The notes under the pieces were generated by a model. That model was not told the DNA's origin. It worked only from the letters and a program-made list of their open reading frames with translations, and ran no database searches. Positions 1 through 17,032 of a stretch of 64,000 nt of DNA are shown here, in pieces. Origin of the DNA: an uncultured Holophagaceae bacterium (GTDB taxonomy: Bacteria > Acidobacteriota > Holophagae > Holophagales > Holophagaceae); the NCBI GenBank assembly GCA_903857495.1, contig CAIOFF010000056.1, positions 1 to 64,000 of the forward strand, written 5' to 3'. A program made the position numbers and the translations under genes. Positions within the stretch are counted from its first letter, which is position 1. Each line of letters starts with the position of its first letter.

Positions 1-192
1 AAGCTTCGACCCGTTCTCGCAACGGAGCTAATTCCGAAGAGGACGGCAGCTTCTTCCGTTTAGCCAAGGGGGATCTCCAATCCCCACGAGCCTATCGGCG
101 ATCAACTCACCCGGTCACGCACCCTTGCCGGAAACACACGTTGAAGGTCATGCAGGTCAAAATCTCGCTTAGAAAATTGTGACCTATCTGGG

Positions 193-220
193 TTGACGAC
201 TTATGCACTGTTGGCATACC
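193..220 (+). promoter_or_regulatory. possible sigma70-type promoter
   Basis: A TTGACG hexamer at 193-198 is followed after 16 bases by CATACC at 215-220, about 40 bases before the GTG start of the zinc-ribbon gene. The -35 box is good and the -10 box is poor, so this is only a candidate. The rest of 1-257 shows no gene or repeat that I can support. Confidence 0.25.
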
Positions 221-257
221 GTGCCTCATTGTCATCAATGAGTCACCGGGGTATTCA

Positions 258-641
258 GTGCCATCTCACCGACTACATACCTACAAGTGCCAATCCTGCG
301 GCAGCTCGCTCAATGCCCGGCCAGAGCACCGTATCATTCGCTGTTCCTATTGCGGCAATCAGATTTCTCTTGAGCGGCAGTCAAACGGATTCTGCTCCTG
401 TGGGCGTAAGGAGGAATGCACCTGTTCCATGTGTGGGCAGGGCCTTTGTGGGCAGCACGTGTTCCAACTTCGGCACTTCGATCTGCGTTCGATCCTTCTT
501 CGTTACAGACCAGATCAAGTCTCCGCGGCCCAACTTTGGGTCCAGAAATTGGTGCGATCAGTACCTGAGGACCATGTGAACTGCTCCGATTGCTTTGACC
601 ACCTGGTTGAAGAATGGCTGACCGGCATCTCCAATAATTGA
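258..641 (+). CDS. zinc-ribbon small protein, unknown function
   Basis: A 127-residue cytoplasmic protein with an unusually dense set of cysteine pairs. CQSC and CSYC near residues 11-33 form a classic zinc ribbon. A second cluster reads CSCGRKEECTCSMC and ends CGQH, and a further CSDC lies near residue 110. These knuckles would bind two or three zinc ions. No catalytic motif is visible and I do not recognise the family. The start is a GTG with a GGGG stretch 7 bases upstream; no ATG fits. The gene lies 68 bases before the lytic transglycosylase gene on the same strand. Its base composition looks less GC-rich than the core genes further right, which fits the proposed integrated element. The role may be protein or nucleic-acid binding, but that is a guess. 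Confidence 0.7.
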   Translation: MPSHRLHTYKCQSCGSSLNARPEHRIIRCSYCGNQISLERQSNGFCSCGRKEECTCSMCGQGLCGQHVFQLRHFDLRSILLRYRPDQVSAAQLWVQKLVRSVPEDHVNCSDCFDHLVEEWLTGISNN

Positions 642-709
642 TGAAACGAGTCTCTGCGTGACCCATTTCTGCGAAACCCTTTTACGGCCTTCCTCACCCA
701 GGGGAGAAA

Positions 710-2995
710 ATGGCGGTTGACTCTGAATTCACAGGCTTTAGGACCTATGTCGTCGACGACTGGGAATACCTCATGCACTATTTCGAGGCCGCCCTGGTCG
801 ATTCCGGCACCGCACCTGCGGTGGCCGACCAATTCACAGCGTTCGTGGCCGATCATGCTGCAAGGGGGTTTGAATTTGTCCGCTGCGACGGGGTTCCCTA
901 CCGGGTGACCCCTGGCTGCCTGGCGGGCCTGCTGGGGGCCAAGGAGAGTTATGGTCACCGCACCATCGTCACCTTCAGGCGGCAGACGAAAGCCCCAGAA
1001 CTGACACCGCCCATCGCCGTGCCCGCGATGGCGGAGCCGCCCATGGGGGCGCCGGCGATAGCGGCCTCGGCAATGGTGGCCCCCCCGAACGCCCCAGCTC
1101 CGCAGCCGCAGGCGTTTCAACCGCCTGCACCGGATCAGAGTCAGACCAACCGGACCCCTCTCCTGATCGGAGGTGTTCTGGTGACTGTCTTGGTGTTGGG
1201 TGGCGCCCTTCTTTCCACCAGCCGCAACTCCCCAAAGGCACCGGTGGTGGCTCCGAGCGCCCCCGCATTCCAGCAGTCGGTGGCGCCCGTCGTGGCTGTT
1301 CCCACCTTCGCCGCCATCCCAATCAGTCCAGACTGGTTCCTCAAGGGTGGAGAGATTTCCGGCGGCTTCGTTCCTCCCGAAGCACGGCTCGACTGGCCGG
1401 AATGGATGCAAGCCATGGTCGGAGACAAGGCGGGGGTTCCACCGGCGGAATTGGCCAAGGCGGACTTCTACCGAATCCCGGATGCCAGTCTGGCGCATGC
1501 GGTGGGCGTCCTAGTCCGGGAGCGGGTGTTCACGCCTGATCTCCTGAAGCAGATTTCGGCCATTTCCTATGCGGCTGACACTGGCGGCTGGCTGTCGGCC
1601 CGCGGCGAATACCAGCGTGCGTACCTCCAGGCCAATCCTCTGCCCGTGGAGGACCCGGCCACCTGCTCCATGGTCCTGACCAGCCTGGTCAGGGCCAAGG
1701 AGTACGACACGGCCCGTGAGGCGCTCCAGCGGGGAGGCGTACCCACCGACCCGGAACTGCGCGCTTCCTGGCTCCGCATGCTGGATTTGGCAGCGAGTGC
1801 CGCCAAGCCTGATCCGAGGCTGATCGGCGAGCCGACGCTGCCGCCCGCAGAGCGGTACGCGGCCCTGGTCGCGTTGGATAAGAAGGACAACGGCTCGACC
1901 CTTCTGGCGTCCTTCCGTGGGACGCCGTTCTTCTCCGAGGCCGTCTACCTTGGTGTAGGCCGTGGCTGGGTGAAGGTCACGGACCCATTGGTGGACGAGT
2001 CGATAGCACAGGACCCGCCCCAGCGGGACGATGCGCCCTGGTTCCTTGCACGCCCCGGGGAGCGGGCCTCGGACCTACTCTGGCTGCAGGCGACAGACGC
2101 CGTGGCAAACGACCAGCTTGAGCGGGCGGCAGGACTCAGCCAGGAATTGCTCAAGCGGTTCCCCCAATCCTATTTCGCCGGCCACGCAATGTTCATGGCG
2201 GAGGCGTTGGGTCAACCGGACACAGAGGCCCGTCCACGCTTGAAAGTCCCATCCGACCTAAACCTATACAACGTAGCGCACCTGGCGCCGCGACCGGCGG
2301 CGTCCGACTTGTGGCCAGCACCTTACGATGCCATGGCGGCTCGCGGCCGCTTCGACCTGATCCTGGCCCAAACGGATCCCAGAACCCAGCCGATGGTCTT
2401 CTTCATGGCGGCGGCACGCTCCGGCCAGGTCGACTTGGCTTCCCGCTACCTGGCCACCGAGAAACTGTGCTCCACGGAAAACGTGAGTTATCTGTACCCC
2501 ACGGCCCTTGCGCCCGTGGTAGCCCAGGCCATCAGGGAGGAAGGACTCCAAGACCTTTTGGAGCCGGCCTTCATCCTGTCCGTGATCAAGTGCGAGAGCC
2601 TATTCCAGCCCACAGCCTCATCCGGCGCCAACGCAATGGGGATGATGCAGTTGCTGAGGCCCACTTTCCGGTCGCTGATGGGGCCTACCGCAGATATCCA
2701 CGATCCACTCACTAATATCCGGGCAGGGTTGAAATACTTCAAGAAAATCATCAAGCAGACAGGATTGGAGCGTACCCCGGTCCAAGTGCGTTATGCCTAT
2801 CTTCTGATGGGGTACCACGCCGGTGATGCTCGAGCCAAGGCGTGGTTCCGCCAGTTCGAACCCCAACTGCAACAAAGCACCGGTCCCAAGGCCACCCTCC
2901 AACGCATCGAGTCGGTACCCATCTTCAGCACACGGCAGTACCTGGTAAGAGTCCTCGGCGACTGCGCGGTCTATTCGCGCCTACTTCAGTTGTAG
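710..2995 (+). CDS. membrane-anchored lytic transglycosylase with N-terminal DUF4177-like domain
   Basis: A 761-residue protein in three parts. Residues 1-92 are a small alpha/beta domain of DUF4177 type, closely matched by the stand-alone protein encoded just downstream. A Pro/Ala-rich linker follows, then one membrane segment near 150-168 (LLIGGVLVTVLVLGGALL). The rest is alpha-helical and TPR-like, ending in an SLT lytic transglycosylase domain near 605-735. The SLT hallmarks are present: a catalytic Glu in IKCESLFQP (about residue 629) and GANAMGMMQLL. Family knowledge says such enzymes cleave peptidoglycan glycan strands to 1,6-anhydro products. With the single anchor, the N-terminal domain should face the cytoplasm and the catalytic part the periplasm. 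The start ATG follows GGGGAG closely. The domain fusion is unusual. Confidence 0.85.
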   Translation: MAVDSEFTGFRTYVVDDWEYLMHYFEAALVDSGTAPAVADQFTAFVADHAARGFEFVRCDGVPYRVTPGCLAGLLGAKESYGHRTIVTFRRQTKAPELTPPIAVPAMAEPPMGAPAIAASAMVAPPNAPAPQPQAFQPPAPDQSQTNRTPLLIGGVLVTVLVLGGALLSTSRNSPKAPVVAPSAPAFQQSVAPVVAVPTFAAIPISPDWFLKGGEISGGFVPPEARLDWPEWMQAMVGDKAGVPPAELAKADFYRIPDASLAHAVGVLVRERVFTPDLLKQISAISYAADTGGWLSARGEYQRAYLQANPLPVEDPATCSMVLTSLVRAKEYDTAREALQRGGVPTDPELRASWLRMLDLAASAAKPDPRLIGEPTLPPAERYAALVALDKKDNGSTLLASFRGTPFFSEAVYLGVGRGWVKVTDPLVDESIAQDPPQRDDAPWFLARPGERASDLLWLQATDAVANDQLERAAGLSQELLKRFPQSYFAGHAMFMAEALGQPDTEARPRLKVPSDLNLYNVAHLAPRPAASDLWPAPYDAMAARGRFDLILAQTDPRTQPMVFFMAAARSGQVDLASRYLATEKLCSTENVSYLYPTALAPVVAQAIREEGLQDLLEPAFILSVIKCESLFQPTASSGANAMGMMQLLRPTFRSLMGPTADIHDPLTNIRAGLKYFKKIIKQTGLERTPVQVRYAYLLMGYHAGDARAKAWFRQFEPQLQQSTGPKATLQRIESVPIFSTRQYLVRVLGDCAVYSRLLQL

Positions 2996-3027
2996 CGTTC
3001 AATCCAACCCCCTAAGGAGGGATCAGC

Positions 3028-3312
3028 ATGGCTAATGACTCAAAGTTCGCAGGCTTCAGGACCTACAGGGTCGGCGGCTTCGATTACCTCATGCAGTATT
3101 TTGAAGCCAAGTTCACTGGCACCGGAACGGTGCACGCAGTGGCCGATCAATTCACTGCTTTCGTGGCAAATCAGGCTGCGAGTGGCTATGAATTCTTCCG
3201 CACCGACGAGGTGCCCTACCGTGTGACCCCCGGGTGCCTCGGGGGCCTTCTGGGGGCCAAGGAAACCTACGGTCACTGCACCATTGTGACCTTCAGAAAG
3301 AAGGTTGACTGA
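3028..3312 (+). CDS. stand-alone DUF4177-like domain protein
   Basis: A 94-residue protein that is essentially the N-terminal domain of the upstream lytic transglycosylase on its own. Both share the FRTY start, ADQFTAFVA, PYRVTPGCL, GGLLGAKE or AGLLGAKE, and TIVTF. There is no signal peptide or membrane segment, so it is probably cytoplasmic. A strong AAGGAGGG ribosome site lies 7 bases before the ATG. It sits 32 bases after the transglycosylase and 2 bases before the YidD-like gene, so the three probably form one operon. The function of this domain family is not known to me. The duplication suggests that the free protein and the enzyme's cytoplasmic domain interact or compete. Confidence 0.8.
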   Translation: MANDSKFAGFRTYRVGGFDYLMQYFEAKFTGTGTVHAVADQFTAFVANQAASGYEFFRTDEVPYRVTPGCLGGLLGAKETYGHCTIVTFRKKVD

Positions 3313-3314
3313 CC

Positions 3315-3518
3315 TTGGTGACCTTTATGGTATGGATAATCCGCGGCTATCAAGCCGTGGCACCCCCAAGGCTTCGGCAGTGCTGCCGGTTCACCCCGAG
3401 TTGCTCTGAATACATGGTGCTTGCCTTGCGAAAATACGGTCCAGTCCGCGGGTTGACCATGGGCCTCACTCGGATCGGGCGCTGCAGGCCACCCCAGGGC
3501 GGAGAGGACTACCCGTGA
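3315..3518 (+). CDS. yidD: YidD-like membrane protein insertion efficiency factor
   Basis: A 67-residue protein with the YidD signature: an amphipathic N-terminus (IIRGYQAVAPPRL), the cysteine-rich core CCRFTPSCSEYM, a helix ALRKYGPVRG, and a C-terminal RIGRCRPPQGG. YidD proteins assist insertion of inner-membrane proteins at the YidC/Sec site. The likely start is the TTG at 3315 or the GTG at 3318, only a few bases after the stop of the preceding gene, so translation is probably coupled; an ATG at 3327 is also possible. YidD is normally found between rnpA and yidC. Here it follows a peptidoglycan lyase gene inside a putative integrated element, which is atypical. It may be a second copy serving the neighbouring membrane-anchored enzyme. 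Confidence 0.75.
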   Translation: MVTFMVWIIRGYQAVAPPRLRQCCRFTPSCSEYMVLALRKYGPVRGLTMGLTRIGRCRPPQGGEDYP

Positions 3519-3641
3519 TTATCACGGACCTAGGAGTCTCACCATCCTTGGAATAGAAGTGGGGAGGACGTCAAGTGGCAGGGAGAGAGCGCACGGCAAG
3601 GGGATAGCTTCATCCCATCTGAATTGGTTGCGGGCGTGAAG

Positions 3642-6600
3642 TCACCCTAGCCCAATGGATTCAAGGTGCTTCTGGAGTTCGGGCAGCCCAAAGGGCTTGG
3701 ACAGCAAGGTGACCCCCGGATAAGCCGAGGCCAAGGTCAGCGCGGTCTGGTCGGTTCGGCCTGTAGCAAGTAGAACCGGCACTTCTGGGCACAGCACTCG
3801 CAAGCGGGGCAGCGTCCCGATCCCACCTATTCCCGGCATGTTCATGTCCAGAATGACGAGGTCGGGCTCGAGCCCAGCCTCGAGTAAAGCCAGAGCCTCT
3901 TCACCGTTCTGGGCTGTGGTCACCGAAGGGTGGCCCAGGACCTCAAGGAGCAACTGGAGGGAACTCTGGATCAGTTCATCGTCATCCACCAGAAGAACCC
4001 TCATGCTTCCCTTGGGGATCAGTGTGGCCTCAGCAACGGCAACCGCCGGTGCGGCGACTTGGGTTTCCTTCTCCCAGGCGGGGAAGCGCAGCATCACCCG
4101 GGTGCCTTGGCCGGGTTCGCTAAGAATGTCCATCTGCCCCCGGTGCGCCTTCATGGTGCTGAAGACCATGGAGAGGCCTAGCCCCGTGCCCTTGCCATGT
4201 TCCTTGGTGGTGAAGAAGGGGTCCGCAGCTCTCTCTTGGATCTCCTTGGACATGCCCGTTCCGTTGTCTTCCACCACTACCTCAATCCAGTTCTTATCCG
4301 CATTGCGGGTGTGCAGGGTGAGGGTGCCGTTCTCAGGCATGGCATCTACGGCGTTCACACAGAGGTTCATGACGGCATGGGTCACGGCACTGGCATCACC
4401 CTGGATTGGATGCAGGCCTGGCTCCAGATCCATCTGCAGGTGAATGTGGGCCAGGGTCGTCCTCTCCAGAAGGCTGACCTGTTCCCTGAGAATGGCGTTC
4501 AGATCGAGTTCATGGATCTCCACTGGAGTCTGACGGGCAAAGTTCAGCAGGGACTTGACCATCTTGCCGCCCCGCTCAGTGGCCTTGCAGATGGTGTCGA
4601 GGGCCTGATAGAGGGGACTTCCGTAGGGCTGGGTGCTGATGTGAGCTGAGGCCAGGCCGAGAATGGCCCCCAGGACATTGTTCATATCGTGAGCGACACC
4701 GCCAGCCAGGGTACCTAGGCTCTCCATTTTTTGGGATTGTTGAAGCTGGGCTAGGAGTTTGGCCTTCTCCTCCTCAGCTTGTTTGCGTTTGGTGATGTCG
4801 CTGTTGGTGCCAATCATGCGCAGCGGTTTGCCATTTTCATCGCGCTGCACCACCATGCCGCGGCCCAGCGTCCAACGCCAGCTCCCATCCTTGCACAACA
4901 TCCGAAACTCGACCGCTACGTGGCCGGGCTTGCCCTCCATGTATGGCTGCAACGTCGCAAATACACCGGGCGCATCATCGGGATGGATGCGCTTGCTCCA
5001 TTCGTCCGACGAGGTGCCGAAGTCGGCCTCGGCATACCCATACATTTCCTTGTAGTGCGGTGAGAAGTAGGCCTTACCGGTCTCGAGATTCCAGTCCCAA
5101 AGGCTGTCTCCTGCCCCTTCGAGGGCGAATTTCCAGCGCTCCTCGCTCTCCCGCAACGCAGCCTCCGCCTGCTTACGTGCGGTGATGTCACTGAAGGTGA
5201 TCACGGCCTGGACAATTAGGCCAGCCGCATCCTTCACGGCATATGCATTGCAGAGCACCCAGGTTGGTGCTGCGCGATCCGGGCGGCAGACGCCAATGGC
5301 TTGGCCCCTGAAGCCCTCGCCAGTGGATAGGACGCGGTTGACAGGATACGAATCCAGAGGCATGGGTGAGCCATCCTCCTGGAGGAAGCACCACTGCGGA
5401 TCGATGGCAGTCTTGCCCAGCATCTGATCTTCGGAAAGTCCGAGGAGGGCTGACGCCATCCCATTGGCCAGCAGGATAGAACTGTCCGGGCCGTGCACCA
5501 CCAAGCCGGAGGAGAGGTTGTCGATGAGGGTTCTGTATTTTTCTTCACTGGCCTTCAGGACGACTTGCGCCTGCTTGCGCTCAGTAATGTCCTGCGCGAT
5601 TCCCGTGAGAATCCATGGCTTGCCATCCTCGTCTCGGCGGAATTCACCGGCTTCCGCCCAGACCACTCGAACGGTGCCGTCCGGCCTGATGATCCGGTAT
5701 TCCAAGGGTGCAGGCCTCCCCTGTTCTATGACGGAGAGGTTGGATTGTTCCACGGCTGCGCGGTCATCCGGATGGATCGCCTGGGCAATCACCTCGGAGA
5801 GGACTCCACGGAAGGACTCCCGGTTGAGACCAAAGATGCGGTACATCTCGTCGGTCCATTCAAGCTGGTCCGACTGGACGTTCCAGGTCCAACTGCCAAC
5901 ATGGGCAACTTGTTTGGCCTTATTCAGACTATTTTCAGATTCGAGCAGTGCCCGCTCCGCGCGCATGCGCTCGGAGACGAGCTCCGTGTACACGATGATT
6001 CCACCGATCGAACCATTGGCTTCGTACCATGGCCGACATTCCCAGCGAGTCCACTCCACGGTGCCATCAGCCCGGGTCCACTCATCGCCGTCCGCACTTG
6101 AAATCACCCCGGCAAGCGCCTTCTGATGAACGTCCCGCCACTTCTGCGGCAGGTCAGGCATGACCTCGTAGTGGTGCCTCCCGATGATGTCCTGACCTAC
6201 CACTTTGTAATCTTGGAGGTATTGCTGGCTTACGTAGATGTACTTCATGTCCCGGTCATGGACTGCCACGGCCTCCTGGCAGTGCTCGATGATGTAGCGC
6301 ATCAACTCATAGGAATGGTTCAGCCTGTCCTCTGCTTGCCTGCGCTCTGTGATGTCCGTAACCGTTGCAAGCACTCCGATGATTTTTCCTTGGGAGTTAC
6401 GGAAGGGGACGCTGGCATCAATGTTCCATCCCTCCTTCCCAGTGCTCTGAACATGGAACCGGAACTCAATCGGGTCGACTCGCTCTCCAGCCAGGGCCCG
6501 GTTCAAGTGGTCCATGGTTCCTGCTTCCTGAAGGAATGGGAACACCTCAAGAGGATGCTTTCCGATCACGTCCTTGGCTGGGATGCCGCTCAGTTGCTCC

Positions 6601-6947
6601 ATGAACGGGTTCCATACTTGGTAGCGCAGATCAGGACCGTAGACGATGACTCCTTCATGGACGCTATGGATAATTTGATCGGTGAACCTTTGGGCCTCCA
6701 TCGCCTTTTTGGCTTCAGTCCGCTCCCTGCGAAGTGCAGCGCGTATCCCCACGAAGAGCAATACTGTCGTGATCAGGACGTAGGTGAAGCCCTTGTAGGT
6801 GGAACTGACACGCTGGTTCTCGATGCTGAGGGATATGGAAGCGACCAGTGCATCAGAGAAGTAAATCCAGAGGCCAGAGAATAGTGCAAACAAGGCGGGC
6901 ACCAACCACTCGGCACGCCTTCCCAGACTCTGAACCCTCTCCGCCAT
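3642..6947 (-). CDS. membrane multi-PAS hybrid histidine kinase
   Basis: A 1101-residue sensor kinase. Two membrane helices at about 13-33 and 50-68 enclose a very short periplasmic loop, so sensing is probably by the cytoplasmic PAS domains. About five PAS/PAC units follow (roughly 85-730), seen from repeated ends such as VTDITERRQAE and QDITERKQAQ. HisKA carries the phospho-accepting His in GGVAHDMNNVL (about 752). HATPase_c has DNGTGM and GKGTGLGL. A C-terminal receiver has the Asp in VILDMNMPG (about 1033). No DNA-binding output is attached, so phosphate must pass to a partner that I cannot identify here. It is convergent with the yidD operon. Its transmitter and receiver are close relatives of those of the kinase at 7619, across the junction. 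A run of ten G lies about 64 bases upstream of its start. Confidence 0.9.
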   Translation of the reverse strand: MAERVQSLGRRAEWLVPALFALFSGLWIYFSDALVASISLSIENQRVSSTYKGFTYVLITTVLLFVGIRAALRRERTEAKKAMEAQRFTDQIIHSVHEGVIVYGPDLRYQVWNPFMEQLSGIPAKDVIGKHPLEVFPFLQEAGTMDHLNRALAGERVDPIEFRFHVQSTGKEGWNIDASVPFRNSQGKIIGVLATVTDITERRQAEDRLNHSYELMRYIIEHCQEAVAVHDRDMKYIYVSQQYLQDYKVVGQDIIGRHHYEVMPDLPQKWRDVHQKALAGVISSADGDEWTRADGTVEWTRWECRPWYEANGSIGGIIVYTELVSERMRAERALLESENSLNKAKQVAHVGSWTWNVQSDQLEWTDEMYRIFGLNRESFRGVLSEVIAQAIHPDDRAAVEQSNLSVIEQGRPAPLEYRIIRPDGTVRVVWAEAGEFRRDEDGKPWILTGIAQDITERKQAQVVLKASEEKYRTLIDNLSSGLVVHGPDSSILLANGMASALLGLSEDQMLGKTAIDPQWCFLQEDGSPMPLDSYPVNRVLSTGEGFRGQAIGVCRPDRAAPTWVLCNAYAVKDAAGLIVQAVITFSDITARKQAEAALRESEERWKFALEGAGDSLWDWNLETGKAYFSPHYKEMYGYAEADFGTSSDEWSKRIHPDDAPGVFATLQPYMEGKPGHVAVEFRMLCKDGSWRWTLGRGMVVQRDENGKPLRMIGTNSDITKRKQAEEEKAKLLAQLQQSQKMESLGTLAGGVAHDMNNVLGAILGLASAHISTQPYGSPLYQALDTICKATERGGKMVKSLLNFARQTPVEIHELDLNAILREQVSLLERTTLAHIHLQMDLEPGLHPIQGDASAVTHAVMNLCVNAVDAMPENGTLTLHTRNADKNWIEVVVEDNGTGMSKEIQERAADPFFTTKEHGKGTGLGLSMVFSTMKAHRGQMDILSEPGQGTRVMLRFPAWEKETQVAAPAVAVAEATLIPKGSMRVLLVDDDELIQSSLQLLLEVLGHPSVTTAQNGEEALALLEAGLEPDLVILDMNMPGIGGIGTLPRLRVLCPEVPVLLATGRTDQTALTLASAYPGVTLLSKPFGLPELQKHLESIGLG

Positions 6948-7010
6948 TCCTGGACCTCGACGTCTTCAAAGGAAATGAGCCCTGAGATTAACAAACCCTG
7001 TGCTTCAATA

Positions 7011-7020
7011 GGGGGGGGGG
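7011..7020. repeat. G10 homopolymer upstream of the hybrid kinase
   Basis: Ten consecutive G residues lie about 64 bases upstream of the minus-strand kinase start, so they read as C10 in its promoter or leader. Tracts of this length can change by slipped-strand mispairing and shift promoter spacing. It is also a place where sequencing errors are common. Confidence 0.8.
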
Positions 7021-7070
7021 AATTGCACTGCTAAGCGCGGACCAGAAATGTATTACACCTGGAACCTCGG

Positions 7071-7257
7071 CTCAGAGGGCCGTTTGCCACCATTCATTCC
7101 GAGGCAGGCACACCCGTCCAAGTTATTCAGGCGCTGCAGCTAGGGCACAACTCTGCCAGGACCACGATGCTTTCTGGAAAACCACCAGGAGAAGGCTACG
7201 GAGCAGCAGGCCAAGGTTGCAGAGAGAATGGGCTTTGGCGGGAAATCGGCAGGCTAA
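7071..7257 (+). pseudogene. tyrosine recombinase (integrase) C-terminal remnant
   Basis: Not in the ORF track. Read from 7071 the frame gives LRGPFAT, then HSEAGTPVQVIQ and LGHNSARTTM. This matches the tyrosine recombinase core LRHTFAT..EAG....IQ.LLGH.s..TT. The reading frame breaks near 7170. Skipping one base gives FLENHQEKATEQQAKVAERM and a TAA at 7255. The canonical HxLRH histidine is lost, and the tyrosine expected shortly after TT is absent (Phe lies near that position). A stop codon at 7032 blocks the upstream frame. It is therefore a decayed 3' end of an integrase gene, lying 40 bases from a tRNA 3' fragment. That is where an integrase gene or its scar is expected next to an att site. 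Confidence 0.7.
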
Positions 7258-7297
7258 TCATAAAAAGGACGCACCAACACTAATTATTTACAACGCC

Positions 7298-7340
7298 ACG
7301 AATCTGAGGGTCGGGCGTTCGAGTCGCGCCGGGACCACCA
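7298..7340 (+). other. tRNA 3'-half fragment, probable att junction (Arg NCG type)
   Basis: The stretch ending CGCGCCGGGACCACCA fits the 3' half of a tRNA. Counting back from CCA gives discriminator A, acceptor strand CGGGACC, T stem CGCGC, T loop TTCGAGT, T stem GGGCG (one mismatch), a five-base variable loop, an anticodon-stem strand TCTGA, and loop bases ACGAA. The anticodon would be NCG (Arg). No matching acceptor 5' strand GGTCCCG lies upstream, so the gene is not intact here. A 3' fragment beginning at the anticodon loop is the usual footprint of site-specific integration into a tRNA gene. The intact tRNA would lie at the other end of the element, beyond the left edge of the window. Confidence 0.65.
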
Positions 7341-7355
7341 AGAATAACAACACTT

Positions 7356-7386
7356 AGGCCCATCACTCCGATGGGCCTTTTCCTTT
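7356..7386 (+). terminator. intrinsic terminator after the tRNA fragment
   Basis: A perfect 9-bp stem AGGCCCATC / GATGGGCCT with a five-base loop is followed by TTTTCCTTTT. It lies 16 bases after the CCA end of the tRNA fragment and is most simply the original terminator of the disrupted tRNA gene. This supports the chromosome continuing to the right. Confidence 0.85.
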
Positions 7387-7618
7387 TGACCTGCGTCCTG
7401 CCTGTGTGGCGTGAACCATGCCGGGTTGTTCGGGGTAATTCATGGTTCGCACCAAGCCTGGCCGAGCCGGTGGGAGGGGGTCGCGTCTGGGGTATGGGCC
7501 TTTCGATAGGTCAAAAATTGGGCAATATGCGCCCATGAGCAACCAATATTTACCCCACAGCTGTGCAGGACGATATCTGGCATTGAAGTCCTCACCCGCT
7601 GGGGCCTCAGGAGGAGAC

Positions 7619-9967
7619 ATGCCTGCCCAGGATGGCTCAAGCAACCTGCTTTCCTCCGGTGTCCTACCTGTTCATGAAAACGGCATGGAGGGCCTCCAGT
7701 CGCTGCTGCAGCTGGTGCCCTTCGGAATCGTGTTCCAGGATGCGGAGGGGAACATCCTCACTGCCAACCCGGCTGCCGAGAGCGTCCTCGGGCTTTCCTA
7801 CGAGCAGATGGTGGGCCGCAAGAGCATCGACCCAAGGTGGAAGGCTCTCCACGAAGACGGCTCCCCCTTCCCAGGAGAGGACCAGCCGGCCATGACGGCC
7901 CTGCGCTCCGGCCTTCCTGGCGAAGCGATCATGGGGCTGTTCAACCCGAGCAAGGAACGGACAACCTGGATCACCGTCTCCGCCGTTCCCCTTTTCCGTC
8001 CTGGCGAGGACACCCCCTATCAGGTGTTGACCACATTCCTGGACATTACCGAGCGCAGGCGGATCGAGGAAGAGCTGCGTGAGAGTCAGGACCTGTTCCG
8101 GGCCATCTTTGACAGCAACACGATCGGCATTGTCGTCTCGGCCGTGACCGGGCCCACGGATGGCTCCGTCCTGACCAGCAATCGCGCCTTCCAGGAGCTG
8201 GTCGGATATTCGAATGAAGAGCTGGCCTGCAGAAGCTTCAAGGAATACACCCACCCCGACTATATCGAAGCCGAAGAGGCCCTGATTGAGGGGTTGACCA
8301 CGCAAACGCGCGCCTTCTATCAGATCGAAAAACGGTTTGTGCGCAAGGGTGGACAGGTTGTCTGGGGGCGACTGCATGGCATTGCCCTGCGGGACCGGGG
8401 AGGGCGGGTCACCGGCGGCGTGTGCGTGATCGAAGACATCACGGGGCGCAAGCAGGTTGAAGAGGCTCTGGAGATGAGCCGAAGGACCCTGTTCGAGGCG
8501 CAGAGACTCGCCCAGGTCGGTAGCTGGCAGTGGGACCTTCAAACGAACAAGGTTCAGTGGTCGCCTGAGATCTACCGCATCACGGGCCTTGATCCAGAGA
8601 ACTATGGCGGAAGCCCCGATCTATTCCTGGAGATCGTCCATCCTGATGACAAGGACGCCTTCACCCAAGTGATGAATAAGACGCGCAGCCAAGAGGGGAC
8701 GACACCCCTCGAATACCGCGTGGTCCGTCCGGACGGTTCCGTGCGCACGGTGTTCGCCACCGGAACCCTGGTCTTGGATGCGGAGGGCCGGACTACCCAA
8801 TGCATTGGCACGATCCAGGACATCACGGAGCGCAGGCTGGCCGAGGAGGTCAACTTAAGGCTGCAGCAACAGCTCCAGCAAGCCCAGAAGATGGAGAGCC
8901 TTGGGAACTTGTCCGGGGGCATTGCTCACGACATGAACAATGTGCTCGGCGCCATCCTGGGAATCGCCTCGGCCAACCTCCAGATCCAACCCCCAGGAAG
9001 CCCCGCCCACAACTCCTTCGAGACCATTGTCAAGGCCGCCACCCGTGGCGGGGAGATGGTGAGAGGTCTGCTGTCGTTTGCCAGACAGAGTCAGGCTGAA
9101 GAACGAACTCTGGATCTGAATGCCATCCTCAAGGAGGATGCCGACCTCCTGGCACGGACAACGCTGGCCAGGGTGGAGCTGAGACTGGACCTCGAAGCTG
9201 ACCTCCTGCCGATCAGAGGGGATGCCGGTGCCTTGTCCCACGCTTTCATGAACCTCTGCGTCAATGCCGTGGATGCCATGCCCGAGAACGGCACCCTTTC
9301 CATCCGTACCAGGAACATCGGCAGGGAGTGGGCTGAAGTCGTCATTGGGGACACGGGATTGGGAATGTCCAAAGAGGTTCTTGAGAAGGCCATGGATCCC
9401 TTCTTCACCACCAAGGGTGTGGGCAAGGGAACGGGACTGGGCCTCACCATGGTCTACAAGACGGTGAAGGCCCATCGGGGGCTGATCGAGATCCAGAGCC
9501 AGCCTGGTCGAGGAACGCAAGTGACGATGCGGTTTCCGGCCAGCGAGTCCGTGAGGACTGACCATGAAGTTGATGCCGGGGCTCGGGCGGCTGTGCCTGC
9601 GCAAACGCTGCGCATCCTCCTGGTCGATGATGATGAACTCATCAGGAGTTCCACCGGAATGGTCGTTCAGACTCTGGGCCATGCTGTGACTACGAGTTCG
9701 AGTGGTGAGGAGGCACTGGCCCTGGTCGAGGCGGGGCTGCGGCCCGAGGCGGTGATCCTGGACATGAACATGCCGGGAATGGGTGGGGCCGGGACACTGC
9801 CTCGTCTGAGAGAGCTGCTTCCAGGTGTTCCTGTCCTGCTGTCCTCAGGGCGGACGGACCAGGCGGCACTGGACCTGAGCAAGGTCCACCCCTCTGTTCT
9901 CCTGCTCCCGAAGCCATTCAGCATCACTGAGCTGAAGGCGTGCCTTAGGTCGCTTGCAGGAGGCTGA
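7619..9967 (+). CDS. soluble PAS hybrid histidine kinase
   Basis: A 782-residue kinase. I place the start at the ATG at 7619, which follows a clear AGGAGGA site, rather than the longer ORF start at 7442. The upstream residues are low-complexity and overlap the terminator region. Three PAS/PAC units (about 15-420) end in DITERRRIEEE, DITGRKQVEE and DITERRLAEE. HisKA has its His in GGIAHDMNNVL (about 435), followed by HATPase_c with GKGTGLGL and a C-terminal receiver with Asp in VILDMNMPG (about 713). No membrane segment is present, so it should sense a cytoplasmic signal. The kinase, ATPase and receiver parts match those of the 3642-6947 kinase over long stretches (VNAVDAMPENGTL is identical). 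It is followed by an intrinsic terminator. Confidence 0.9.
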   Translation: MPAQDGSSNLLSSGVLPVHENGMEGLQSLLQLVPFGIVFQDAEGNILTANPAAESVLGLSYEQMVGRKSIDPRWKALHEDGSPFPGEDQPAMTALRSGLPGEAIMGLFNPSKERTTWITVSAVPLFRPGEDTPYQVLTTFLDITERRRIEEELRESQDLFRAIFDSNTIGIVVSAVTGPTDGSVLTSNRAFQELVGYSNEELACRSFKEYTHPDYIEAEEALIEGLTTQTRAFYQIEKRFVRKGGQVVWGRLHGIALRDRGGRVTGGVCVIEDITGRKQVEEALEMSRRTLFEAQRLAQVGSWQWDLQTNKVQWSPEIYRITGLDPENYGGSPDLFLEIVHPDDKDAFTQVMNKTRSQEGTTPLEYRVVRPDGSVRTVFATGTLVLDAEGRTTQCIGTIQDITERRLAEEVNLRLQQQLQQAQKMESLGNLSGGIAHDMNNVLGAILGIASANLQIQPPGSPAHNSFETIVKAATRGGEMVRGLLSFARQSQAEERTLDLNAILKEDADLLARTTLARVELRLDLEADLLPIRGDAGALSHAFMNLCVNAVDAMPENGTLSIRTRNIGREWAEVVIGDTGLGMSKEVLEKAMDPFFTTKGVGKGTGLGLTMVYKTVKAHRGLIEIQSQPGRGTQVTMRFPASESVRTDHEVDAGARAAVPAQTLRILLVDDDELIRSSTGMVVQTLGHAVTTSSSGEEALALVEAGLRPEAVILDMNMPGMGGAGTLPRLRELLPGVPVLLSSGRTDQAALDLSKVHPSVLLLPKPFSITELKACLRSLAGG

Positions 9968-10097
9968 GGCTGTCTATCTGAAGCAGCGTTCAGCTCGGAC
10001 CTCGTCGGCATGGTCTGGTGATGCCACAAGGTGAACTCGTCGCCTCTGCGATAGGGCGTCGCCCAGGTTGGGACCCGTCGCTCCAGGACCACCGACC

Positions 10098-10122
10098 AAG
10101 CCCCTGCAGGTCAGGGGCTTTT
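10098..10122 (+). terminator. intrinsic terminator after the hybrid kinase
   Basis: A 9-bp perfect stem AAGCCCCTG / CAGGGGCTT with loop CAGGT is followed by TTTTG. It ends transcription of the plus-strand kinase and may also serve the convergent minus-strand mini-gene. The remaining sequence between 9968 and 10097 holds nothing else I can support. Confidence 0.8.
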
Positions 10123-10145
10123 GCTTGGGTGCGCTCGAGCTCTCC

Positions 10146-10238
10146 TCAGCCCCTCTTCAACGACCGGTCGATGAGAATCGCGACGATGGCGACCGCGAAG
10201 CAGAGACCGGCGGCGTAGAGCTTCCAGTTGGGGTTCAT
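10146..10238 (-). CDS. 30-residue single-pass membrane protein
   Basis: Too short for the ORF track. The minus strand reads ATG AAC CCC AAC TGG from 10238 to a TGA at 10146, giving MNPNWKLYAAG followed by LCFAVAIVAILI and the basic end DRSLKRG. That is a short polar start, one hydrophobic helix of about 15-18 residues and a positively charged C-terminal end. An AGAGGAG ribosome site lies 6 bases before the ATG. The gene starts 24 bases after the stop of the OPA-family transporter on the same strand and ends before a terminator, so the two are probably co-transcribed. It could be a small accessory subunit of that transporter; this is inference from position and topology. Confidence 0.6.
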   Translation of the reverse strand: MNPNWKLYAAGLCFAVAIVAILIDRSLKRG

Positions 10239-10262
10239 CTCGCGCTCCTCTGCAGCCTTGAA

Positions 10263-11645
10263 CTATTGCTCTGGGCGTGGTTCTGGGGTCATTCTCCCGC
10301 TCTGCCGCTGCATGTGCCTGGCCAGGAGGGTCAGGGCGACACTGGCGAGCGCGGCGGCGAGCCAGCAGGCGCGCACGCTGGTGAAGTCGTAGGCGGGGAG
10401 GCCGGCGCCACTGAGGCGGCCGCGGCCGATGAGCCAGCCGCTAAGCACGTCCTGGATGCCGGCGCCGATGTAGCTGGCCACGCCCACAAGGCCCAGGGCC
10501 GTGCCCGCGGCGGCCCGGGGCACGGAGTCCACGGCCATCAGGCCGCCCATGAGGCAGACCAGGGAGCCGATGGAGAGGCCGAAGCCCACCATGCTGAGGG
10601 CATCCAGGATCCGCGGGCCGTGGGGTACCAGGAGCATCAGCGCCAGCGAGGCGCAGTTCAGCAGGCCGAAGAGCACGGAGGGCTTCACCCGGTCCCCGTG
10701 GAAGACCACGTCCGAGAGCCAGCCGGAGGCGATGGTGCCGATGACGCCGCACACGGAGCTGATGGCCACCAGGCTGCCCGCCTCCACCAATGTGTAGCCC
10801 TTGGCGTGGTGGAAGTAGAACACGCCCCAGCTGTTCACGGCGTAGCGGGTGACATAGACGGCGGCGCTGGCCGAGGCGATGCACCAGACCAGCGGACTGC
10901 GCAGCACGCGCAGCTGCTCCTGGGTGAGCAGGCCCGAGGGCTTCACCGGAACCGCTTCCACAGCGACCGTGGCGCTCGCCTCCAACGGCTTGTGCCGGAA
11001 GAGCACCCAGATGAGCAGCACGCCGAAGGCCCCGGCGGCGGCGCTGGCGAGGAAGCCCGCCCGCCAGCCCCAGCTGGCCACCACCAGGGAGGTGAGCAGG
11101 AAGGTGATGGCCTCGCCGAGGTTGTGGCTGGCGCTCCAGAGGCCGTAGCAGGTGCCCCGCTGGCGCGGCTCGAACCAGCGGGTGATGCCCACGACGCAGG
11201 CGCTGGCGCCCATGGACTGCAGCCAGCCGTTCAGCCCCCAGAGGGCGGCGAAGCCCGCGAAGACCAGCCAGCCCCCGGCCCAGCCCAGGGCCAGGTTCAC
11301 CAGCGCCGAGCCCACCAGGCCCAGGGCCAGCAGCAGGCGGAGGTTCAGGCGGTCCGCCAGCACCCCATTGGCGAACTTGCCCGCGGCGTAGGCAAAGAAG
11401 AGGGCTGATCCGGCGATGCCGACCTGGGCTTCGGTCAACACGCCGGTGGACACCAGGGGGGCCTTCACCACGGCGAGGCTGAGGCGGCAGACGTAATAGA
11501 ACCCATAGCCGAAGGTGGCTCCCGCCAGCACCGCCCACTGGCGGCCCGTGACCTCGCCCCAGCCGAAACGGCTCACTGCCGCGCTCCGAGCGCAGGAGGA
11601 AAGGGCCACAGGGGCAGGGTGGGGGCGGGAACCAGCATGCCCCAT
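10263..11645 (-). CDS. MFS transporter, organophosphate:phosphate antiporter (GlpT/UhpC-like) family
   Basis: About 460 residues with roughly 12 hydrophobic segments. The N-terminus FGYGFYYVCRLSLAVVKAP is typical of the OPA branch of the major facilitator superfamily, which exchanges sugar phosphates or glycerol 3-phosphate for phosphate; some members (UhpC) act as sensors. The track's longer start (11744) adds a low-complexity Pro/Arg-rich leader, so I prefer the ATG at 11645. GTG codons slightly downstream are also possible. The substrate cannot be read from the sequence. It is followed by a 30-residue membrane protein on the same strand and is divergent from the cupin gene. Confidence 0.8.
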   Translation of the reverse strand: MGHAGSRPHPAPVALSSCARSAAVSRFGWGEVTGRQWAVLAGATFGYGFYYVCRLSLAVVKAPLVSTGVLTEAQVGIAGSALFFAYAAGKFANGVLADRLNLRLLLALGLVGSALVNLALGWAGGWLVFAGFAALWGLNGWLQSMGASACVVGITRWFEPRQRGTCYGLWSASHNLGEAITFLLTSLVVASWGWRAGFLASAAAGAFGVLLIWVLFRHKPLEASATVAVEAVPVKPSGLLTQEQLRVLRSPLVWCIASASAAVYVTRYAVNSWGVFYFHHAKGYTLVEAGSLVAISSVCGVIGTIASGWLSDVVFHGDRVKPSVLFGLLNCASLALMLLVPHGPRILDALSMVGFGLSIGSLVCLMGGLMAVDSVPRAAAGTALGLVGVASYIGAGIQDVLSGWLIGRGRLSGAGLPAYDFTSVRACWLAAALASVALTLLARHMQRQSGRMTPEPRPEQ

Positions 11646-11746
11646 CGAACCACGCCCCCTCAGCGGGGGGACAGGGGTTTTCGGGCTCCGGTGCCGGTAG
11701 GCTGGTTGAAGGCCTCCCCACGGTTGTCCCATCCACCGGAGCACTC

Positions 11747-12208
11747 ATGACCCTGCCGACCTGCCTTCCCCTCGCAGCCGTGCTGCTGTTTTCGGGCTGC
11801 GGCTCGGCGCTCGTCGCCCAGGCTCCCAAGGCGGCGCTGGCGGTGACCTCGACCTCGCTGCTCAAGACCAACACCACCTGGAACGGTGCGCCCATCACCT
11901 ATTCCAAGTCCGGCAGCCCTGAGATCCAGTCCGTTATCGTCACTATTCCCGCGGGTTCAGCCACCGCCTGGCACCTCCACCCCGTCAACAACATCGCCTA
12001 TGTGCTCGAAGGAAAGGTGCGCCTCGAGCTGGAGAACGGCACGACGAAAAGCTTCAGCGCCGGAGAGTCCTTCGCGGAAGTGGTGAACACCTGGCACCGC
12101 GGTACCAACCTCGGCGAGGGCCCGCTCCGGATCCTGGTGATCTATCTCGGCGAGATCGGCACGCCCCTCTCCGCCGCCAAGGGTGGCGTGGCTCCCGAGA
12201 AGCATTGA
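11747..12208 (+). CDS. secreted cupin-domain protein
   Basis: 153 residues. The first 25 or so are a hydrophobic signal sequence (PLAAVLLFSGCGSALVAQA). It could be cleaved after AQA or lipidated at the Cys of FSGC, although that lipobox is imperfect. The mature part is a single small beta-barrel cupin. The metal-binding pattern is visible as AWHLHPVNNIAYVLEGKV (HxH plus a downstream E-like position) and a later His in NTWHRG. Such stand-alone periplasmic cupins bind a metal and a small ligand or carry out simple oxygen or isomerase chemistry; which one cannot be said. It is divergent from the OPA transporter and convergent with the small-protein gene at 12261. Confidence 0.8.
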   Translation: MTLPTCLPLAAVLLFSGCGSALVAQAPKAALAVTSTSLLKTNTTWNGAPITYSKSGSPEIQSVIVTIPAGSATAWHLHPVNNIAYVLEGKVRLELENGTTKSFSAGESFAEVVNTWHRGTNLGEGPLRILVIYLGEIGTPLSAAKGGVAPEKH

Positions 12209-12260
12209 GCCTGGCCGCGGTCCGGGTCGAAGAAGTCCTCATCCATCCTCGTCGCGGCGC

Positions 12261-12521
12261 CTAGAGCCGCGCCCGCTCAGCCCGGATGAGGTCCCAGAGA
12301 TCCTGCAGGACAAGCCCCGAGGCGACCCGCTCCCGCTCCAGCATGGCTTCGGCCAGATCCTTGGGGTCCGTGTAGGTCACCCCCTGGTATTCCCACACCC
12401 AGAAGTCATTGGCGAGCCGCACTGAGAAGGTGTGCTTGCCAAGCCTGAAGGTGCCGCCGGTGGGCGTGTTCATGGTCAGGACGAGGATCCTGCTTTCGAG
12501 CGAGCCGTGGCCAGAACCCAT
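12261..12521 (-). CDS. small conserved protein, paralogue of the one at 14145
   Basis: 86 residues with no signal peptide. The start ATG follows an excellent AAAGGAGG site. The core TGGTFRLG...FSVR...DFWVWEYQGVTYTDPKDLAEAML lines up with SGGGFWLG...IVVR...DWWEWKACGKVFFDPHDLAETLT of the protein at 14145, so the two are paralogues flanking hisC. The pattern of aromatic residues and a closing DPxDLAE helix suggests a small beta-sheet domain with a C-terminal helix. I do not recognise the family and assign no function. Its neighbour upstream on the same strand is a small two-CxxC protein about 40 bases away. Confidence 0.7.
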   Translation of the reverse strand: MGSGHGSLESRILVLTMNTPTGGTFRLGKHTFSVRLANDFWVWEYQGVTYTDPKDLAEAMLERERVASGLVLQDLWDLIRAERARL

Positions 12522-12558
12522 CAGTGCCTCCTTTGATTGCGCCGATCAATGGGTCTTC

Positions 12559-12786
12559 TCACAAACCCGTTCGGCGGTGGCCACGGGGGCCCCCGCGGTG
12601 CAGGGCGGTCTCGTGGTAGGCCAGCAGAAAATGGTTCTTCAGGCACTTGTTGCAGATGCCGTGGGAGATGAGGGCGTTGGGCCACGCCTTGATGACGAAC
12701 CGCTCGAGGGTCTTCGGCAACCAGACGCTGTTGATGTTGATGGCGTCACACCAGGCGCACTTGATCAAAAAGTCCTTTTTCTTCAT
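12559..12786 (-). CDS. small two-CxxC zinc-binding-like protein
   Basis: 75 residues from the ATG at 12786, which is preceded by CGGAGGATGTC. The longer track ORF (165 aa) runs into unrelated low-complexity sequence and overlaps the region ahead of hisC. Two cysteine pairs, CAWC near the N-terminus and CNKC about 40 residues later, fit a single zinc site, and histidines follow (HGIC, KNHF). The first part is basic (MKKKDFLIK). The family is unknown to me; such proteins often bind nucleic acid or act as small adaptors. It probably forms a two-gene unit with the small protein at 12261 and is divergent from hisC. Confidence 0.65.
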   Translation of the reverse strand: MKKKDFLIKCAWCDAININSVWLPKTLERFVIKAWPNALISHGICNKCLKNHFLLAYHETALHRGGPRGHRRTGL

Positions 12787-13013
12787 GACATCCTCCGGGG
12801 CAGGAGGCCCATGTTGCTGGAATGGAATCCAAGCATAGGGGTTCTGACTGGGCCGGCCATCCCGGGTATCGGGTAGTCCGGGTATCGGGAAACAGGTAGG
12901 GCCCGGGGGCCGTGGTACGATGGGCTGGCCTTCCTGCTGCCCGGCGCAGGGAATGAACCTGCTGGCCTCGCCGCCCGTGGCCCGTTGCTCACCATCCTCT
13001 GACTGAAGTGACC

Positions 13014-14087
13014 ATGAGCCGATTCTGGAGTCCCGTCGTTCGCACCTTGACCCCATACGTTCCCGGCGAGCAGCCGAAGCAGGAACGCATCGTCAAGCTC
13101 AACACGAACGAGAACCCCTACGGCCCCTCTCCCCGGGCCCTGGAGGCCATCCAGACCGCATCGGGGGATGCTCTGCGGCTCTACCCGGACCCGAACAGCG
13201 AGGCCCTGAAGCGCGCCCTGGCGACGCAGCTGCGGGTCCGCCCGGACCAGGTCTTCGTCGGCAACGGCTCCGACGAGGTGCTGGCCCACGTGTTCCAGGC
13301 GCTGCTCAAGCAGGAGCGGCCGCTGTGGTTCCCGGACATCACCTACAGCTTCTATCCCGTCTACTGCGGCCTCTACGGCATCGCCTCGCGGACCCGCCCC
13401 CTGGCGGAGGACTTCTCCATGCGCGTGGAGGACTACCTGCCCACGCCGGACGAGTGCGCAGGCGGGATCATCTTCCCCAATCCCAACGCGCCCACGGGCT
13501 GCCCCGTGCCGCTGGCGGGGGTCGCGCGCATCGCCGCCGGAAACCCGGATGCGGTGGTGGTCGTCGATGAGGCCTACGTGGACTTTGGCGGCGAGAGCGC
13601 GGTCGGTCTGGTGGACCGTCACCCGAACCTGCTGGTGGTCCAGACCTTCTCCAAGAGCCGCTCTTTGGCCGGTCTGCGGGTGGGCTTCGCCATCGGCCAC
13701 CCGGAGCTCATCGAGGCGCTGGAGCGGGTGAAGAACAGCTTCAACTCCTACCCGCTGGACCGCCTGGCGCTGGCGGGCGCGGTGGCCTCCGTGCAGGACG
13801 TGGACTACTTCCAGGCCTGCTGCCAGAAGGTGATCGCCACCCGCCAGCGACTGGTCGCGCAGCTGGACGCCCTGGGCTTCGAGGTGCTGCCCTCCGCCGC
13901 CAACTTCATCTTCGCCCGCCACCCTGGCCGGGATGCCGCCGCCCTCGCTGCCGAGCTGCGCCAGCGGGCCATCATCGTCCGGCACTTCCGCCTGCCGAGG
14001 ATTGACCAGCACCTCCGGATCACCGTGGGCACGGATGAGCAGTGCCAGCTCCTGGTCGAGGCGCTGACAGAGATCCTGGACCACTGA
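13014..14087 (+). CDS. hisC: histidinol-phosphate aminotransferase
   Basis: About 357 residues of the class I/II PLP aminotransferase fold. The opening [26 protein letters not shown] is the HisC hallmark. Other motifs are [26 protein letters not shown] (cofactor-binding Asn), [10 protein letters not shown] (Asp) and [16 protein letters not shown], where the Lys forms the Schiff base. HisC converts imidazole acetol phosphate and glutamate to histidinol phosphate in the cytoplasm. Length is normal. I prefer the ATG at 13014; the track begins two codons earlier at a GTG. It stands alone rather than in a his operon, with small unknown genes on both sides, so a role in aromatic amino-acid transamination is also possible. 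Confidence 0.9.
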
Positions 14088-14144
14088 TCCGTCCCGGAGG
14101 CGGGCTTTGTCTGAACCAGGCTGCTCGGCGGCCCTCCCAGGGAG

Positions 14145-14393
14145 CTAGGCCCTCGACTCGAAGCTGTGACGATGATGGGCCTGGGCCTGGTGGCGTCGGG
14201 GCCGGAAGTGGGCGACACGCCTTCGGGTGAGGGTCTCGGCAAGGTCGTGCGGGTCGAAGAAGACCTTGCCGCAGGCCTTCCACTCCCACCAGTCGGGGCC
14301 GTAGCGGACGACGATGAAGCTGCCGCCCAGCCAGAACCCCCCGCCACTCGGGGTGCTCGCCGTCAGTTCCATGATGAGCGCTTCTGAAACCAC
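14145..14393 (-). CDS. small conserved protein, paralogue of the one at 12261
   Basis: 82 residues starting at a GTG preceded by GGGAGGTG at good spacing. The core is clearly related to the 12261 protein (GGxFxLG, VVRYGPDWWEWK, FFDPHDLAETL), but the C-terminal tail is different and His/Arg-rich (RPRRHQAQAHHRH). Such a tail could bind metal or nucleic acid. The function is unknown. It is convergent with hisC. Upstream lies an AT-rich stretch that probably holds its promoter. Confidence 0.65.
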   Translation of the reverse strand: MVSEALIMELTASTPSGGGFWLGGSFIVVRYGPDWWEWKACGKVFFDPHDLAETLTRRRVAHFRPRRHQAQAHHRHSFESRA

Positions 14394-14550
14394 GCTTCAC
14401 CTCCCAGGGGACGTTCAAGCCAGAGGCGCTGGTGGCAGGCGTGGCGGGCAGGGGCTTTCGCGTACTCGCCTCACCAGGCCAGCCAGGGATCTGGCCTCAG
14501 GTGCCCTCAAGATAGGTCAGAGGCTTCTGGCCGCAAGCCACAATGGACAC

Positions 14551-14590
14551 AAAAGTAATCAATTATTGGTATAAATCATTTGATTTAGGC
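14551..14590. promoter_or_regulatory. AT-rich patch with a 14-bp palindrome
   Basis: In otherwise GC-rich sequence, a stretch of about 40 bases is mostly A and T. It contains the palindrome AAATCATTTGATTT (14573-14586) and a nearby TAATCAATTA-like motif. It lies about 180 bases upstream of the minus-strand gene starting at 14393, just after the 3' end of the hybrid kinase. It could be a promoter/operator or a binding site for a nucleoid protein. Nothing else is visible in 14394-14620. Confidence 0.35.
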
Positions 14591-14620
14591 TCGCCAGGCC
14601 CCCTGGCAGCTCTGCCAGGC

Positions 14621-17032
14621 CTAGGCCAGGCGGGGCTGGATCTCCTGGATGAGCGCCTGGAGGGCGGGCAGCTCGAAGGGTTTTTGCAGGAATCCGGAAG
14701 GGATCTGGTCGCCAAACTGCCAGGTGGCATCCTGCTGGCTGTACCCGCTGATGAGCACCACCCGGACCCCGGGGTTGAGGTCGCGCAGGGCCCGGAAGGT
14801 ATCGGCACCGCTCAGCTCTGGCATGGTGAGATCCAGCAGCACCCAGTCGATCGCTTCGGCATGCTCAAGGTAGAGGGCGAGGGCCTCCGTGCCATCAGCG
14901 GCCAGCAGCGTGCGGAACCCCAGGTAGGCCAGCATGGCGGCGGAGGCATCCCGGACCAGATCATCATCGTCCACGATCAGGACCAGGTCGGAGCCCCGGG
15001 CTTCGTTTCCGGGCGTGCCGGTTGCCGCCAGGGCCTGCCTGGGCTCTGCTGCGGCCGAAGCGGGGCTGCTGCTGACCGGGAAGAGAATCCGGACGTTGGT
15101 GCCCTGGCCGGGATGGCTGTCGATCCTCAGCGCGCCATGGTGGCCCCGGACGATGCCCAGCACCGCGGACATGCCCAGGCCGCGACCGGTGAACTTGGTC
15201 GTGAAGAAGGGATCGAAGAGCCGACTCAGGGTGTCCTGGTCCATGCCGGAGCCGGTGTCATCCACCTCGACGAAGACGTAGCGGCCCGGGGCTGGCTTCT
15301 CATCGAGGCGGCTGCCCGCAAGGTAGGCCTCGTCCGCATCTAGGACGCCTGTGGCGATCGAGACCGTGCCCGGCTGCTGGCCGATGGCCTCGGAGGCGTT
15401 GGTGATGAGGTTCATCACCACCTGCTGGACCTGCCCTGGATCCGCATGGGTGTGCGGCAGGCCTGCGGTCAGGTTGAGGTTCAGGGTGATGGTCCGGGAG
15501 AGTCCCACCCGGAACAGGTGCACGTTCTCCTCGACCACTTCGTTGAGGTCCAGGTCCTTCACGTCGAAGGTGCCCCGGCCCGAGAAGGCCAGCATCTGGC
15601 GCACCAGGTCCGTGGCCCGGCGGTTCGCCTGCAGGCTCCGCTCCAGGAAGGGGCGGGCGGGCGAGTCGCCGCCCTGGGTGTGCAGGGCCAGCTCCAGGTT
15701 CGCCAGCATGGCCATGAGGAGGTTGTTGAAGTCATGGGCGATGCCCCCGGCCATGACGCCCAGGCTCTCCAGCTTCTGGGTGTGGAGGAGCCGCCGCTCG
15801 AGCTCCAGGCGGGTGCTTTCCCACTTCCGGTGTTCGGTGATGTCGAGGCAGGAGCCGATATACCCCACGAAGGCGCCCGTGGAGTCATGGCGGGGGTGGC
15901 CCTCGTCGATGACCCACTGGTACTCCGCATCGTGGCGGCGGAGCCGATACTCCATCCGGAAGGGCTGCCGCGCCTCCCAGGCTGTCAGGTAGGTCCTGGC
16001 GCAGCGCCGCAGATCCTCCGGATGGACGACGGCCCGCAGTCCGGCTGCCCTCAGCTCCTCCAGGCTCAACCCGACGAAGGTGAGGAAGCGGCCATTGAAC
16101 CAGCTGAGGCGCTTGTCCGGCCCCGTGAGCCAGATCATGGCCGGTGAGCTGTTGGCCACGGACTCGAAGAGCGACTGGCTCTCCCGGAGCGCGGCCTTGG
16201 CCTGCTCACGCTCGGTCTCGTCCTCCAGGCAGAGGAGGAACACGGTTCTGCCGGCGGCCTGGATCAGGGCCAGGGAGGCCCGGAAGGCCACCACACGGAT
16301 GACGCCCTGCTGCTCGATGGTGGTGCGGTAGCTGAGCCCGGTCTCCGGCTGGCCCGTCCCCAGGATCCGCCGAGCCGACTGCTGCACAGCGCACTCGCAG
16401 CAGGCCAGTCCCGTGCCGCAGCCTTGGGGCTCCGCCGTGGCCCGGACACAGCCGAGGGCACTGCCGAAGCCCAGGGATTTCAGCAGGGCCTCGGAACGGC
16501 CCGCATAGGCCTCGAAGGCCCGGTTGGTGTCGATGATCTGGAACCCGGGGTCCAGGCGGCACATCATCACCGGGGCATTCTGGTAGATGGCTTCCATCTC
16601 CAGCCGGTTGTGGTTCAGGGCCTCCTGGGTCCGCTGGTGGTCCTGCTTGGTCCCCCACTCGCGCAGGGCCCGGCCCAGGGAGTGGCGCAGGTCCTGGAAG
16701 GACTCCGGGGACTTGACCAGGTAGTCGAGGGCGCCGGCCCTCAGGACATCCACCGCGATCTGCTCGCTGCCGAAGCTGGTCATGACCAGGACGGGGATCG
16801 GCGCCTCCGTGGTCCAGCCCCGGAGCAGGTCCAGGGCCTGACCATCGGGCAGGTTCATGTCCAGCAGTGCCAGGTCCGGCAGACAGACGCGCATCGCCTC
16901 CCGGCAGTCGGCCAGTGTCTCAACGACCTGGACCTGATAGACAGGATCGACGCCTTCCAGAGCCCGCCCGATTGCCTCCGCATGGGCGGGATCGTCCTCG
17001 ACCACGAGGACCCGGATGGGGGTAGCGTCCAT
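14621..17032 (-). CDS. receiver-PAS-kinase-receiver hybrid histidine kinase
   Basis: About 803 residues from the ATG at 17032; the longer track ORF overruns the upstream receiver gene in another frame. An N-terminal receiver (VLVVEDDPAHAEA, Asp in LALLDMNLPDG) is followed by two PAS units. The first, near 138-260, contains a cysteine-rich insert, CECAVQQS. The kinase core has His in GGIAHDFNNLL (about 432), an HATPase_c with GRGLGMSAVLG, and a terminal receiver (Asp in WVLLDLTMPEL, about 732). There is no membrane segment. Receiver domains at both ends make it a relay node, probably accepting phosphate from the upstream kinase or the Rcp-like receiver. It is the last gene of a three-gene operon, starting about 18 bases after the receiver gene stops. 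Confidence 0.88.
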   Translation of the reverse strand: MDATPIRVLVVEDDPAHAEAIGRALEGVDPVYQVQVVETLADCREAMRVCLPDLALLDMNLPDGQALDLLRGWTTEAPIPVLVMTSFGSEQIAVDVLRAGALDYLVKSPESFQDLRHSLGRALREWGTKQDHQRTQEALNHNRLEMEAIYQNAPVMMCRLDPGFQIIDTNRAFEAYAGRSEALLKSLGFGSALGCVRATAEPQGCGTGLACCECAVQQSARRILGTGQPETGLSYRTTIEQQGVIRVVAFRASLALIQAAGRTVFLLCLEDETEREQAKAALRESQSLFESVANSSPAMIWLTGPDKRLSWFNGRFLTFVGLSLEELRAAGLRAVVHPEDLRRCARTYLTAWEARQPFRMEYRLRRHDAEYQWVIDEGHPRHDSTGAFVGYIGSCLDITEHRKWESTRLELERRLLHTQKLESLGVMAGGIAHDFNNLLMAMLANLELALHTQGGDSPARPFLERSLQANRRATDLVRQMLAFSGRGTFDVKDLDLNEVVEENVHLFRVGLSRTITLNLNLTAGLPHTHADPGQVQQVVMNLITNASEAIGQQPGTVSIATGVLDADEAYLAGSRLDEKPAPGRYVFVEVDDTGSGMDQDTLSRLFDPFFTTKFTGRGLGMSAVLGIVRGHHGALRIDSHPGQGTNVRILFPVSSSPASAAAEPRQALAATGTPGNEARGSDLVLIVDDDDLVRDASAAMLAYLGFRTLLAADGTEALALYLEHAEAIDWVLLDLTMPELSGADTFRALRDLNPGVRVVLISGYSQQDATWQFGDQIPSGFLQKPFELPALQALIQEIQPRLA

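Follow-up and report, generated by a model that had tools for sequence, protein, structure and literature searches.

An integrase remnant, a displaced tRNA-Arg(ACG) 3' half and a tRNA terminator at the very likely end of an integrated element in a Geothrix-like bacterium

The stretch of DNA analysed here (the window) covers positions 1 to 64,000 of the 79-kb contig C56 in the 3.7-Mb, 70-contig source genome, G000. Two hybrid histidine kinase genes face a short junction. The left one (positions 3642 to 6947, minus strand; 1,101 aa) carries PAS, HisKA, HATPase and receiver domains by Pfam, and the right one (7442 to 9967, plus strand) begins the right flank. Between them lie the C-terminal remnant of a tyrosine integrase (7068 to 7236, plus strand), the 3' half of a tRNA-Arg(ACG) gene (7298 to 7340, plus strand) and an intrinsic terminator (7356 to 7378, plus strand). 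To the left of the first kinase, positions 1 to 3641 hold a 127-aa open reading frame (ORF), a lytic transglycosylase with an SLT domain (710 to 2995, Pfam), a 94-aa ORF and a YidD-like gene (3315 to 3518, Pfam). YidD is usually a core gene; here it adjoins the SLT transglycosylase in island DNA. The two kinases flanking the scar are ~65% identical to each other in their kinase and receiver parts and 27% in the sensor part. A sequence-only reading had taken the three junction signals, in that order, as the distal end of an element integrated into a tRNA gene.

The frameshifted tyrosine-recombinase C terminus named in that reading is indeed present. The remnant corresponds to the last 56 residues (279 to 334) of a 334-aa homologue encoded intact in another species (G054, C41:3494-4498): 7068 to 7172 in one frame resemble residues 279 to 312, and 7168 to 7236 in the next frame resemble residues 312 to 334 (tblastn E value, 5e-17). 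Relative to the homologue it carries an additional residue, and its reading frame shifts near 7172, where a 2-base gap hits the tyrosine codon of the TTMLY motif, and the same remnant occurs in a second genome, G062. The full-length homologue scores 59.8 bits against PF00589 (E value, 3.8e-16), and the remnant alone scores 14.2 bits (E value, 0.037), below the family cutoff of 27.1. Since the remnant by itself is weak against Pfam, its identity is settled by the relatives; within the PF00589 family it counts as a fragment of a pseudogene and not as a working member. No further relative of the G054-type integrase was found in G000 at an E value of 1e-10, and self-excision of the window element is not expected, because most of the integrase sequence is missing. 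The G054 layout is that of the window: a tRNA-Arg 3' half starts at 4562, 64 bp after the end of the intact integrase gene (4498). Directly behind that half, from C41:4569, ORF reading revealed phage-tail-like genes; the G054 locus may represent two adjoining prophages or a phage genome carrying its attP.

The tRNA fragment, of attR type, spans the first anticodon base to the CCA end and equals bases 35 to 77 of the genome's own intact tRNA-Arg(ACG) at 42 of 43 positions (98%; E value, 1.2e-14); a reversed control pattern gave 0 matches. The intact gene, the one full copy in G000, lies at C29:96545-96621, 3' of a glpD-like gene. ARAGORN found no intact tRNA in the 64-kb window. An intact tRNA-Arg sharing the last 43 bases had been predicted outside the window, to its left; it was found (with one mismatch) outside the window, but not to the left on the same contig. 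It sits on another contig, since a contig ends where the window begins. That a GC-rich stretch of 43 bases resembles a tRNA by chance has a practically negligible probability. The fragment folds no better than shuffles, and Rfam returned only chance matches over the junction, with no tRNA match to the half. This is as expected of half a tRNA, which is unable to fill the tRNA model; against that model the intact homologue reaches 65 bits. The match to the genome's own gene, and homology that extends through the terminator, speak against chance, which is refuted by a collinear empty site in a relative.

The terminator is a hairpin with a perfect 9-bp stem, a 5-base loop and a T-rich tail (−16.8 kcal/mol; z score, −5.0). 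The same stem-loop follows the intact tRNA in the close relative G045, and a closely similar one is retained in more distant species (G004, Geothrix terrae); the window terminator is therefore the original terminator of the tRNA-Arg gene, as had been proposed. At the loci read, a simple stem rule, applied with no shuffled control, places a stem-loop with a T-rich tail behind 29 of the 31 intact genes and 12 of the 13 halves.

G045 (contig CAIPAY010000197.1) retains the site without an insertion. There, sequence collinear with C29:91160-96664 (95%), one intact tRNA-Arg and sequence collinear with window 7298-9975 (93.5%) are contiguous, so that the tRNA is joined straight to its terminator and the right flank, with the second histidine kinase adjoining, follows. 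Such a relative was what the earlier reading had suggested looking for. Window 1-7297 and C29 past 96664 are missing at the G045 site, which is exact at the tRNA. With the intact tRNA elsewhere in the genome and this empty site, the junction is almost certainly the distal end (attR) of an element integrated in the tRNA-Arg(ACG) gene of a Geothrix-like bacterium.

The site has been used repeatedly, with at least 14 copies of the tRNA-Arg(ACG) 3' half in 10 of 47 genomes of the genus. All are 3' halves that start at tRNA bases 28 to 36 and head to the CCA end (the alignment of the copy on G004:C9 reaches only base 70); a tRNA truncated where its contig ends accounts for the sole 5'-only match among these genomes. 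Several half copies adjoin integrases, including the intact one in G054. A tRNA half could also arise without integrase-driven integration if the tRNA locus were duplicated or rearranged, for instance by an IS, and the island does contain a transposase (DDE_Tnp_1) and shared repeats. The fixed breakpoint of the half copies and an empty site precise at the tRNA nonetheless speak strongly against it, as do the neighbouring integrases, and we regard it as extremely improbable.

Base composition agrees with acquisition of the island by integration. GC content is 60.5% in window positions 1-3640, 58.1% in 3641-7297 and 67.8% from 12 kb onward; on C29, it passes from 69.8% before the tRNA to 57 to 62% in C29:96622-105304, and outside the island it is 68 to 70%. 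The lower island GC that had been anticipated was thus seen (58 to 60% versus 68%). The flank kinase at 7442 to 9967 is also lowish in GC (~60%) and may be an older acquisition.

The decayed element, with the 1,101-aa kinase as its cargo, is shared with G062, where the tRNA, the terminator, a histidine kinase at the matching position (78% amino acid identity), an equally truncated integrase and the scar lie within 4.1 kb, collinear with window 3670-7342 at 80%. Because the G062 element is without window 1-3669, these bases are probably an additional insertion. The proposal that bases 1 to about 7300 are acquired DNA therefore stands, since they are missing from G045 and lower in GC, with the correction that 1-3669 are probably an insertion of their own and that the island is compound, with at least two elements. 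The kinase copies of G000 and G062 are only 80% identical and their flanks 90 to 93%, which makes it uncertain that one old element simply descended vertically. In glpD and the flank kinase, G045 is nearer to G000 than G062 is. It is nonetheless without the element, so the element was lost in G045 or spread through recombination. Compared between G062 and the window, the island kinase has kept its sensor part (85%), and the kinase part has diverged (71 to 76%). Together with the identities of the two kinases beside the scar, this pattern suggests domain exchange among these histidine kinases.

Adjoining the intact tRNA, C29:96575-101680 is a complete 5.06-kb element with its own 473-aa tyrosine integrase, an exact 47-base tRNA repeat at each end and an excisionase-like protein (phrog_66; E value, 4e-4). 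Its far repeat is a second tRNA-Arg(ACG) 3' half (C29:101634-101680) followed by a similar terminator. One large element could be drawn from the intact C29 tRNA to window position 7340, the scar at 101634 being incidental, and the identical orientation of the tRNA-Arg scars on C29 and C56 would suit it. We consider this very unlikely, given that the 5.06-kb segment has a complete integrase and both end repeats and that the sequence past the C29 scar is the left end of a separate element in G062 (91.5% over 258 bp). That likeness marks the C29 scar as an element end, and the terminator shared with G045 marks the window scar as the original end. The island is thus made up of two or more elements, in tandem or nested, with the window's older one lying beyond the 5.06-kb one. 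The sequences imply that the tRNA is followed first by the complete 5.06-kb element and a scar, then by the decayed element with extra DNA and another scar, and last by the original flank; in G000, the extra DNA includes a DDE transposase (DDE_Tnp_1) on C29 and window 1-3669. C29 and C56 are separate in the assembly, and both break at repeats common to other contigs. No k-mer is shared between the C29 and C56 ends, and each end equals that of some other contig; where those other contigs are matched at all in G045, it likewise ends at the same repeats. We infer that C29 and C56 join through a repeat.

From the sequences, the empty site, the shared decayed element and the second element, all directly observed, the order of events and a strand exchange within the anticodon loop can be inferred. 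An incoming element would have brought a copy of the tRNA 3' half with a terminator, and its tyrosine integrase would have recombined that half with the anticodon-loop region of the chromosomal gene. The tRNA gene would thereby have been rebuilt at the left end, and the original 3' half and terminator displaced to 7298-7378 at the right end. The integrase gene beside the right end would then have shrunk to its last 56 codons and acquired a frameshift, fixing the element with the histidine kinase as cargo. Later, the complete 5.06-kb element would have entered the rebuilt tRNA, leaving the second 3'-half scar at C29:101634.

Islander, a catalogue of tRNA-gene islands, places 2083 of 3919 islands in the anticodon-centred crossover class and also describes tandem arrays (125) (PMC4383910). 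The present island resembles those in having an intact tRNA at one end and a displaced 3' fragment in the same orientation at the other, a tyrosine integrase inside and a crossover of the same class. It differs in that the integrase of the window element is decayed and the two ends lie on different contigs; a search requiring an integrase ORF per candidate could miss the window element as a separate island. The 5.06-kb C29 element, with its integrase, excisionase-like protein and tRNA repeats, is like the prophages and satellites that enter tRNA genes via phage-type (PF00589) integrases; unlike in prophages, no structural phage gene was recognised among its few tested ORFs.

A literature search found no island study for Geothrix (Acidobacteriota). 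The kind of event is already textbook, and the recurrent integration site is newly mapped in this genus; a three-signal scar read by eye proved confirmable from relatives, despite a contig break and a dead integrase. Throughout Geothrix and its relatives, the tRNA-Arg(ACG) gene behind glpD might be a hot spot of accretion, a proposal we hold to be evenly poised: elements would supply the 3' half and terminator, keeping the tRNA terminated through repeated tandem insertions, and decayed ones would leave sensor kinases as lasting host genes.

Two further loci carry half or whole copies of the gene. Contig C28 of G000 (1-17155) has an exact 141-base end overlap and is probably a circle of ~17.0 kb or a tandem unit; it holds another tRNA-Arg(ACG) 3' half (8988-9029, minus strand), TniQ and TniB genes and an rve-type transposase, and no tyrosine integrase was recognised on it. 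In G002 (C1:1795000-1806500), two complete, identical tRNA-Arg(ACG) genes point the same way at a distance of 2.9 kb and enclose an integrase-like piece, unlike the half-copy scars elsewhere.
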